64,000 nucleotides of DNA from Pseudooceanicola spongiae (lineage in GTDB: Bacteria > Pseudomonadota > Alphaproteobacteria > Rhodobacterales > Rhodobacteraceae). This document shows, piece after piece, positions 33,910 to 38,196 of the stretch. The stretch covers positions 2,891,501-2,955,500 of the forward strand of contig NZ_CP045201.1 in assembly GCF_014899185.1 (NCBI RefSeq). Reading direction: 5' to 3'. The notes under the pieces are model-generated. The model was not told the DNA's origin and searched no databases. It worked only from the letters and a program-made list of their open reading frames with translations. The translations under genes were made by a program, and so were the position numbers. Within the stretch, counting starts at the first letter, position 1; each line of letters starts with the position of its first letter.

Positions 33910-34404
33910 TCAGCCCGCCTTCTTGGCCCGACGCAACAGCATGTCGCGCTTCACCTTGCTCAGGTGGTCGAAATACATCTTTCCCGCCAGATGGTCGATC
34001 TGATGCTGCACGGAGGTTGCCCAGAGACCAACAAAGTCCTTGTCCTCGACCTCACCCGCCTCGTTGAGAAACCGCACCGTCACGGCACGGGGCCGCTCAA
34101 TTTTGGCCGAAACACCGGGCAGGTTCGGGCTGGCTTCCTCATGTGGGCGCAGCTGGATGCTGGCGTGCAGCACCTCGGGGTTGGCCATGCGCACGACCTT
34201 GCCGCGCTCCTCGCTGGCATCAACAACGGCGAGGCGCAGCATCACACCGATCTGCGGCGCGGCGAGGCCGACTCCCGGCATTTCCTCCATCGTGTCGATC
34301 ATGTCCCGCCAGATCGCGCGGATCTCGTCGGTGATCTCCTCGACATCGATGGCAGGGGTGCGCAGGCGCTTGTCGGGCCAGGGGATGCAACGGCGGGATG
34401 TCAT
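33910..34404 (-). CDS. peptide deformylase-like protein, degenerate active site
   Basis: 164 residues, clearly deformylase-related: motif 1 [10 protein letters not shown] is intact. In motif 2 the metal cysteine is lost (SPNLPG instead of EGCLS), and in motif 3 HExxH has become HQIDH, so both the cysteine ligand and the catalytic glutamate are missing. Classical deformylase activity is unlikely; it may be regulatory, structural, or act on another substrate. It overlaps the preceding deformylase gene by 4 nt and precedes fmt. The frame is open and conserved in shape, so not an obvious pseudogene. Confidence 0.85.
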
Positions 34405-34898
34405 TTCAGAACCTCGTAAGCTGTCATCAGGTCGCGCAAGGCGCCGGGAGCGAGGTAATTGAGATAGACCCGCCCCTCGAGATGATCGAATTCATGTTGG
34501 GCACAGACCGCCTCGAACCCGCTCAGCCGCTCTTCATGCACCGCCCAGTCGAGGTCGTGCCAGCGCAGGATCACCTCGGCCGGGCGCGGCACGTCGGCAC
34601 TCACTCCGGGGATCGAAAGACAGCCCTCGGTGTGCACCGCCATCGCGTCAGAACGCCAGAGGATCTCGGGGTTGAGACAGGCGCGCGGGCTCGGCGTGCC
34701 CTCTTTCCAGGTGCAGTCCATCACAAACACGCGGGCCAGCACACCGACCTGACTGGCGGCCAGCCCCCGGCCCGGCGCGGCATACATCGTGTCGAACATA
34801 TCGGCGACGAAGCCGCGGACATCTTCGCCCGGCGTGATCGGATCACAGACCGCCTTCAGGCTGGGGTCGGGCCAGCGCAGGATGTCCAGCACCGCCAT
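34401..34898 (-). CDS. peptide deformylase (second copy)
   Basis: 165 residues with an intact-looking active site: motif 2 EGCLSIP (metal cysteine) and motif 3 QHEFDHLEG (HExxH). Motif 1 is slightly unusual, GRGLAASQVG instead of GxGLAAxQ with proline. It would remove the N-formyl group from nascent proteins. It overlaps the degenerate paralogue by 4 nt and lies 22 nt after the first deformylase gene. Confidence 0.88.
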   Translation of the reverse strand: MAVLDILRWPDPSLKAVCDPITPGEDVRGFVADMFDTMYAAPGRGLAASQVGVLARVFVMDCTWKEGTPSPRACLNPEILWRSDAMAVHTEGCLSIPGVSADVPRPAEVILRWHDLDWAVHEERLSGFEAVCAQHEFDHLEGRVYLNYLAPGALRDLMTAYEVLK

Positions 34899-34920
34899 GG
34901 CTCAGCAGACCCCCAAAGGT

Positions 34921-35439
34921 TCAGTCACGGGCCATTTCGCGCTTCAGCTTCTGCATCTTGCGGGTGATCATCTGGCGCTTGATCGGCGTCAGGTAGTCGA
35001 TGAACAGCTTGCCATCGAGGTGGTCGATCTCGTGCTGCACGCAGACCGCCCAAAGGCCCTCGAAGGTCTCTTCCTGCTCGGCACCGTTGCGATCCATCCA
35101 GCGGGCCGTGACCTCGGCGGGGCGGGTCACAGCGGCATATTGATCCGGGATCGACAGACAGCCTTCTTCATAGGACTGCATGTCATCACTGGCGGCGATG
35201 ATCTCGGGGTTGAACATGACCAGCGGGCGCGGCGCCTCGCCTTCTTCCTTGACACAGTCGAGCACGACGAGGCGCTGCAGAACACCGATCTGCGGCGCGG
35301 CCAGACCGATGCCCGGCGCGTCATACATGGTTTCCAGCATGTCATCGGACAGCTTGCGCAGCGCATCCGAGATATCGGACAGCGGCTCGGCCAGCTTCTT
35401 CAGGCGCGGGTCGGGGTGGATCAGGATCTGGCGTTTCAT
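34921..35439 (-). CDS. def: peptide deformylase (principal copy)
   Basis: 172 residues with all three canonical motifs: [17 protein letters not shown] and QHEIDHLDG. It acts at the ribosome exit on N-formylmethionine. Start 35439 (MKRQILIHPDPRLKK) matches the family's usual beginning; ATG 35448 is possible. First gene of the def-def-def-fmt operon, divergent from the MalY-type gene. Confidence 0.94.
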   Translation of the reverse strand: MKRQILIHPDPRLKKLAEPLSDISDALRKLSDDMLETMYDAPGIGLAAPQIGVLQRLVVLDCVKEEGEAPRPLVMFNPEIIAASDDMQSYEEGCLSIPDQYAAVTRPAEVTARWMDRNGAEQEETFEGLWAVCVQHEIDHLDGKLFIDYLTPIKRQMITRKMQKLKREMARD

Positions 35440-37530: not shown

Positions 37531-37567
37531 GTGAAAGCGCGGCCCCGGGGGGACCGCGCCATTTCAC
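37531..37567. terminator. bidirectional hairpin between the glyoxalase-like gene and hsp20
   Basis: GTGAAAGCGCGG pairs with CCGCGC(CA)TTTCAC around a CCCC/GGGG-rich loop. The symmetric long stem between convergent genes suggests use in both directions. Confidence 0.6.
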
Positions 37568-37584: not shown

Positions 37585-38061
37585 TCAGGCTTCTGCGGTA
37601 TCTTGTGTGGTCTCGATCGCCTTGGCGTTCACAGTGTTGCCACGTGCGATGTCGATCCGGCGGGGCTTGAGCGCCTCGGGGATCTCGCGGACCAGATCGA
37701 TGTGCAGCATACCATCGGCATGGGTCGCACCGGAGACGCGAACATGATCCGCCAGCGCGAAGCGACGCTCAAACGCGCGGGTCGCAATACCACGGTGCAG
37801 GTAGGTGCGCGGGCTGTCATCAGCCGGTTTGCTGGCCGAGACGACGAGCGACCGGTCCTTCACCTCGACACCGAGATCGGTGTCGGAGAAACCGGCAACC
37901 GCAATCGAGATGCGATAGGCGTCTTCGGCCGTTTTCTCAATGTTATAGGGAGGATAGGTCGAGGTTCCGACGTCGGTCGTCAGGGCGCGATCCATCATTT
38001 CGGCCAATTGGTCAAAGCCGACAGTGGCGCGGTACAGGGGGGCGAGGTCAAAATTACGCAT
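37585..38061 (-). CDS. small heat-shock protein Hsp20 (IbpA-like)
   Basis: 158-residue alpha-crystallin-domain chaperone holding denatured proteins. The N-terminus MRNFDLAPLYRATVGFDQL resembles class A IbpA-type proteins; the alpha-crystallin core (~40-140) includes YRISIAVAGFSDTDL, and an IEP-like tail motif is not clear. Start 38061 is fixed by the AAGGA site 10 nt upstream, which lies in the thermometer hairpin. Expression is probably controlled at two levels: sigma-32 and RNA temperature sensing. Confidence 0.92.
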   Translation of the reverse strand: MRNFDLAPLYRATVGFDQLAEMMDRALTTDVGTSTYPPYNIEKTAEDAYRISIAVAGFSDTDLGVEVKDRSLVVSASKPADDSPRTYLHRGIATRAFERRFALADHVRVSGATHADGMLHIDLVREIPEALKPRRIDIARGNTVNAKAIETTQDTAEA

Positions 38062-38067
38062 GAGTTT

Positions 38068-38159
38068 GTCATCCTTCATCAAGCGATAACGTGTTGAGTC
38101 TTGGCCCTCCTCTCAGGGGACGGGCCGGTCTGCGCAGGACCCGTCGTCTGGCGTCCTGC
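38068..38159 (-). promoter_or_regulatory. ROSE-type RNA thermometer in the hsp20 leader
   Basis: The leader folds into three consecutive hairpins on the minus strand. I: GCAGGAC/GTCCTGC (38134-38159). II: GGCCCGTCC/GGAGGGCC with one bulge (38103-38126). III: GTTATC-G-CTT paired with AAG-GATGAC (38068-38090). Hairpin III hides the Shine-Dalgarno AAGGA, and its left arm contains UCGCU with an unpaired G, the ROSE hallmark U(U/C)GCU. Melting on heating would free the ribosome-binding site. Confidence 0.82.
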
Positions 38160-38167
38160 AAGAGAAT

Positions 38168-38196
38168 ATCTGGGAAGGGATCGTTGCGCTTTCAAG
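38168..38196 (-). promoter_or_regulatory. sigma-32 (RpoH) promoter of hsp20
   Basis: CTTGAA (38191-38196) and CCCAGAT (38168-38174) with 16 bp between match the heat-shock consensus CTTGAA-N13-17-CCCATNT closely. The predicted transcript starts near 38160, just where the first leader hairpin begins. Confidence 0.75.

Follow-up and report, generated by a model that had tools for sequence, protein, structure and literature searches.

How the synthesis of a small heat-shock protein is adjusted to temperature is the question raised by the hsp20 gene of Pseudooceanicola spongiae. The gene lies on the minus strand at 37585..38061 of the window, by which is meant the whole stretch of 64,000 nucleotides that was analysed, and it encodes an IbpA-type small heat-shock protein of 158 aa with the ATG start codon at 38061-38059. 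The deduced protein matches PF00011 with 62.4 bits, and its top match in NCBIfam is IbpA, with a score of 155.3 bits that is under the cut-off of 212. With high confidence we propose that hsp20 is under dual heat control, exerted by an RpoH-type promoter and by a three-hairpin ROSE-type leader. According to this proposal, an RpoH-type sigma factor would transcribe the gene from CTTGAA-N16-CCCAGAT, and the transcript would open with the leader. At ordinary temperature, hairpin III would pair UCGCU with the Shine-Dalgarno (SD) sequence AAGGA around an unpaired G and thus block ribosome binding; on heating, its imperfect stem would open and permit translation from 38061.

The start codon at 38061, as already assigned in the initial annotation, agrees with the homologues, since their alignments begin at residue 1 with ATG in 79 of the 80 named loci (the best 80 of 574 from GTDB contigs, mostly Rhodobacteraceae). 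The exception among these best 80 of 574 is L067, with a protein match from residue 3. Another in-frame AUG, at 38077-38079 in the loop of hairpin III, is found 18 nt 5' of the real start and may mislead gene callers. Translation start at this AUG (38079) was considered and rejected, as it sits in a hairpin loop and, judged by eye, is out of frame in the AAUG loop common in the relatives. The gap between the SD sequence and the AUG (38062-38071) is 10 nt in the window, compared with the usual 6 nt in relatives. Upstream lies a gene for a trypsin-like protease, whose stop codon precedes the -35 element of hsp20 by three bases. Downstream, in the interval where hsp20 and a glyoxalase-like gene converge, a GC-rich inverted repeat at 37531-37567 resembles a shared terminator. 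The scan in the vicinity of hsp20 revealed neither a sigma-70 promoter nor a T-tailed terminator, the inverted repeat included.

Both elements of the RpoH-like promoter described earlier were confirmed in the window and proved to be conserved before the leaders of relatives. The -35 element CTTGAA (38191..38196, minus strand) is present in 97 of the 109 hsp20 leaders inspected and, 16 nt away, the -10 element CCCAGAT occupies 38168..38174 of the same strand. An RpoH-like promoter was found before 103 of these 109 leaders (a sample with the window and three duplicate leaders in and L067 out), the remaining six giving no match to the pattern, and the spacer measures 16 nt in 92 of the 103. With at most one mismatch allowed, CTTGAA-N16-CCCAGAT has a single match in 64 kb (0.09 expected), and the exact pattern, which was composed after the site had been seen, has two in the 4.37-Mb genome, one of them the hsp20 site. 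The other exact match is located at C1:3944992-3945020 of the same genome. The site agrees with the promoters of alphaproteobacterial RpoH factors, for which a CTTGAA-N15-16-CCTATAT-like consensus is given in excerpts of PMC4843759 and in the logo text of PMC3441632. In R. sphaeroides, promoters of RpoHI have A as base -12 and T as base -9 (PMC3441632, excerpt). With the same numbering in the window, the predicted +1 is 38159, where hairpin I begins, which would give a leader of 98 nt. The sigma factor is probably of the RpoH type, and of the RpoHI/RpoH1 kind, as judged from the promoter.

A leader of about 100 nt with three hairpins, the last of them sequestering the SD sequence by means of a UCGCU motif with an unpaired G, had also been described in the initial annotation, and this architecture was recovered in full. 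The predicted 5' leader of 98 nt covers 38062..38159 of the minus strand, its +1 being derived from promoter geometry. Folding yields hairpin I at 38134..38159 with G38152 unpaired, hairpin II at 38103..38126 with G38121 unpaired, and the SD-sequestering ROSE hairpin III at 38068..38090, all on the minus strand and all conserved in relatives. In hairpin III, UCGCU (38086-38082, minus strand) is followed by the loop 38080-38077; nine of nine positions are paired around the unpaired G38084, and AAGGA (38072..38076, minus strand), recognised from sequence and folding, is buried in the stem. A fold begun 5 nt ahead of the predicted +1 added three pairs to hairpin I. On a single sequence the fold exceeds chance only weakly (z -1.59; 9 of 200 shuffles equally good), and the case rests on the relatives.

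The leader shares the characters of ROSE-like elements. It stands 5' of a small heat-shock gene, on a transcript that is deduced from the promoter; its SD sequence is paired in the 3'-proximal hairpin with U(U/C)GCU, the motif that pairs the SD sequence in ROSE-like elements (PMC3669281, excerpt); and the motif contains an unpaired G, G38084. Its three hairpins fall within the range of two to four reported for such elements (PMC4166951, excerpt). Deletion of the bulged G of the oppF thermometer weakens heat induction, as stated in the accessible part of PMC11342760. The leader is very probably a ROSE-type RNA thermometer, presumably opened by heat.

The initial annotation had counted the lack of a covariance hit against its own reading, and for Rfam that is literally what was obtained, the window giving zero matches at the gathering score. 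The leader alone scores 16.3 bits with RF00435 (gathering score 45) and 15.1 bits with RF02523 (gathering score 43), and it is not listed for RF01832 (ROSE_2) even at E ≤ 10. At the gathering score Rfam was equally without a match in 20 loci of the family, the window's own included, and in 19 loci of the class. The window leader is consequently not filed as a member of the curated RF00435, RF01832 or RF02523, and since the thermometer claim could not rest on Rfam, relatives were examined for the same structure.

A protein search at E ≤ 1e-20 gave a match in 196 of the 198 genomes of the family, in some of them to the paralogue alone. The best 30 family loci, the window's own included, and the best 80 of 574 named above provided 110 leaders, 107 of them distinct. 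The UYGCU motif begins 19-27 nt 5' of the start codon in 30/30 family loci. Taken at its best offset, the stem formed by this motif has at least seven of nine pairs in 80/80 named loci (best 80 of 574) and in 29/30 family loci; shuffling of the stretch after the motif, with offsets searched identically for real and shuffled stretches, gave means of 18.2 (80 loci) and 7.3 (30 loci), and maxima of 28 and 14, respectively, in 500 runs. Swapping the arms between loci reduced the pairing from 8.33 to 7.78 of nine, a comparison that is biased because each right arm had been selected for optimal pairing with the left arm of the same locus.

A covariance model was built from 29 relatives, with the window excluded; its structure was drawn up manually for a single relative (L008) when the window fold was already known. 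It replaced a first model that contained the window and was based on an RNAalifold structure with CGC-GCG pairing; on the plain MAFFT alignment RNAalifold left out hairpin III and joined CGC to the GCG that follows the start codon. In an alignment of 81 rows (the 80 named loci and the window), 16 of 24 pairs show changes on both sides, helices 1 and 2 and hairpin III all being among the covarying stems, and 94.6% of the paired cells are paired, as compared with 83.8% after shuffling and 58-60% when the partner is slid by one column; 16 rows from outside the family give 17 of 24 pairs and 96.6% paired cells against 77.5% shuffled, both alignments having been fitted to the relatives' model, so that these counts lean towards it. 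The counts for the unpaired G lean the same way, this base being kept in 76, 76 and 81 of the 81 rows in hairpins I, II and III, respectively. When 30 leaders were aligned by MAFFT alone, the unpaired Gs of hairpins I and III were invariant and that of hairpin II was conserved to at least 90%. The most conserved part of the whole leader is the SD-burying core of hairpin III. At the top of this hairpin the window itself shows a C-G to U-A change, having CUU/AAG where CUC/GAG is commoner.

The relatives' model recognises the window leader with 49.8 bits (38059-38166), the next match in the window reaching 10.5 bits. Over the whole genome the leader is its sole significant match (E 2.8e-8, against 9.6 for the runner-up). 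All 81 loci were matched (the best 80 of 574 and the window), three of the 80 having leaders identical to those of training loci, and the window leader ranks 72nd of the 81 by score. In the family census at E ≤ 0.001, a match was found in 177 of the 198 genomes, 29 of the 198 having supplied the training leaders. At E ≤ 0.01, 63 of 289 genomes of the class gave a match, four of the 63 belonging to the window's family, the window's own included. Of the 66 class matches, one is the window's own and 39 others were read, namely 19 from the best and the 20 weakest: the matched ATG is the start codon of hsp20 in 19/19 of the former (three of the window's family), and the gene lies directly downstream in 19/20 of the latter, i.e. 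directly 3' of the leader in 38/39. At L187, positions 51-150, a weak match with UAUCGCUC is followed by what appears by eye to be an alcohol-dehydrogenase-like frame, and represents either chance or a ROSE element of a non-heat-shock gene.

In 21 of the 198 family genomes the relatives' model found no match. Among the 20 of these that were listed, two are without a protein match and nine have a weak, paralogue-like one (best E 1e-26 to 1e-34); in the other nine the protein match is good (best E 5e-49 or better), but the model gave none. The motif alone is unspecific, with nine matches in the genome, two of which lie 5' of hsp20 genes. Two other places in the genome, L205 (C1:760462) and L204 (C1:657334), show TCGCT...RAGGA...ATG before frames that by eye are transporter-permease-like, with stems of 7 and 5 of 9 pairs, respectively. 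ROSE-like elements have been described before ABC transporter genes (PMC11342760, excerpt).

With regard to coverage, RF00435 gave 18 matches at E ≤ 0.01 over the same 289 class genomes, one of them above its cut-off, and none in 14 control genomes. As the relatives' model found 63, we read the Rfam miss as poor coverage. Five places are common to both models (G451, G257, G425, G392 and G396), and 13 of the 18 RF00435 places are absent from the matches of the relatives' model, each model thus covering its own part. The leader is an ordinary, well-supported member of the ROSE-like class that is beyond the reach of the curated models.

Among the closest known systems is E. coli ibpA (ROSE_2, RF01832), which belongs to the same gene family as the window hsp20 and in which UCGCU likewise buries the SD sequence. 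The relatives' model matches the ibpA leader of E. coli K-12, ending at the ATG, with 26.1 bits and an E value of 2.4e-5 in a search of 9 kb, and Rfam identifies the same stretch as ROSE_2 with 100.4 bits. Hairpin II of E. coli has a core, CCUGUCC...GGAAGG with its single unpaired G, that is frequent in the relatives of the window, whereas under their model the lower stem of hairpin III contains three non-standard pairs in the E. coli leader. ROSE (RF00435) resembles the window leader in having an unpaired G before CC in hairpin I and UYGCU in the last hairpin, but part of its long last stem is absent from the window. Unpaired Gs in hairpin I of RF00435 and hairpin II of ROSE_2 mean that this feature is shared and not new. 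The short ROSE element of Pseudomonas ibpA combines, as is proposed for the window gene, sigma-32-dependent transcription with translational control by U(U/C)GCU, but has two hairpins instead of three (PMC3669281, excerpt). ROSE-G, according to the available part of PMC12857270, also has an unpaired G in the anti-SD strand; it differs in its CUGCU motif with opposed bulged Gs and in its location before ABC transporter genes, the window having UCGCU with a single bulge. Nautella sp. R11, of the Roseobacter clade, has like the window genome two small heat-shock genes, and ROSE-like motifs were noted upstream of both of them, ibpA and hspD; in the accessible text of PMC3230580 this is a one-sentence statement without structure, covariation or census.

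The leader might, instead of or besides melting, serve mainly as a binding site for Hsp20 itself, so that free Hsp20 would bind and repress translation and aggregates would titrate it away, temperature acting via protein aggregation. The IbpA protein of E. coli represses its own synthesis by binding to the 5' UTR of its mRNA, which requires R93, the aromatic Y34, R97 and K98, and R93 and Y34 have already been pointed out in alpha-proteobacteria (PMC10474464, excerpt). At E. coli places 34, 93, 97 and 98 the window Hsp20 carries Y, R, R and R, its Arg95 corresponding to E. coli R93, and 80/80 relatives likewise possess Y34, R93 and R97, place 98 being R or K; as these residues are kept, protein feedback is a serious addition. 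Hairpins I and II, which lie away from the SD sequence, show covariation and retain the unpaired G in 76/81 rows each, which also speaks for this reading. On the other hand, the most conserved part of the leader is the SD-burying core of hairpin III, as a thermometer needs, and the last hairpin of Pseudomonas alone gives temperature control (PMC3669281, excerpt); in the literature excerpts at hand, moreover, binding of IbpA to its leader was not found reported outside gamma-proteobacteria. That Hsp20 binding is the main role of the leader is therefore conceivable but somewhat doubtful. The thermometer and Hsp20 feedback are compatible mechanisms, and we tentatively suggest, as a possibility of similar weight, a joint sensor in which hairpin III would read temperature and Hsp20 would bind hairpins I/II, so that aggregates, too, could release translation.

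In such a joint sensor the window Hsp20 alone should act, and not its paralogue, because the latter is without a basic residue at place 98. The paralogue proteins of 30 loci, that of the window genome included, keep R93 and Y34, while place 98 is occupied by S, M, T or A. Their leaders contain UYGCU in 30/30 family loci, with at least seven pairs in 23. CTTGCR or CTTGTN with CCCATAT stands before 26 of the 30, GTTGTC before one, and CTTGAA never; the three leaders without a pattern match include that of the window genome. This second hsp20 gene (L001 1336-1383; C1:3903225-3903272 in the genome) also pairs UCGCU with the SD sequence AAGGA, and its promoter, which the search pattern missed, reads by eye CTTGCA-N16-ACCATAT.

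It is far less probable that the leader is simply a stable structure at the 5' end, by which the mRNA is protected or its translation tuned, heat induction being wholly due to RpoH. Such a role would be in line with the slight opening obtained by nearest-neighbour folding, in which the probability of an open SD sequence in the whole leader rises from 0.027 at 20 °C to 0.065 at 42 °C and for hairpin III alone does not exceed 0.0003 at temperatures up to 42 °C; the sharp melting looked for by this method (L067 row left out) was not seen, and the thermal opening of the proposed thermometer is therefore an inference and not a computed result. Against a purely structural role, the conserved helix is precisely the one that buries the SD sequence, with an invariant unpaired G (81/81), and one model recognises both this leader and that of E. 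coli ibpA, a thermoregulator in Rfam. Chance hairpins in a GC-rich intergenic region, to which the single-sequence z of only -1.59 and the nine motif matches in the genome could point, are practically refuted by the comparative data, namely the covariation and the hsp20 gene 3' of 38/39 class matches read.

The type of switch is thus already known, and what the locus adds is a leader that public RNA-family models miss. The three-hairpin ROSE architecture with one unpaired G per hairpin extends over 177/198 family and 63/289 class genomes and is recognisably common to E. coli ibpA, and curated models leave such leaders unmarked in the loci tried. A family model derived from them would let annotation pipelines mark the switches and correct start codons. 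The contrasts between the two Hsp20 proteins and between their promoters provide a straightforward test of temperature versus aggregation sensing.

Elsewhere in the window, 33910-35439 contains three consecutive peptide deformylase genes (PF01327). The one at 33910-34404 has EASPN where the other two have EGCLS, a position that we take to be the catalytic Cys motif of peptide deformylases, and its product may accordingly be without the catalytic Cys.
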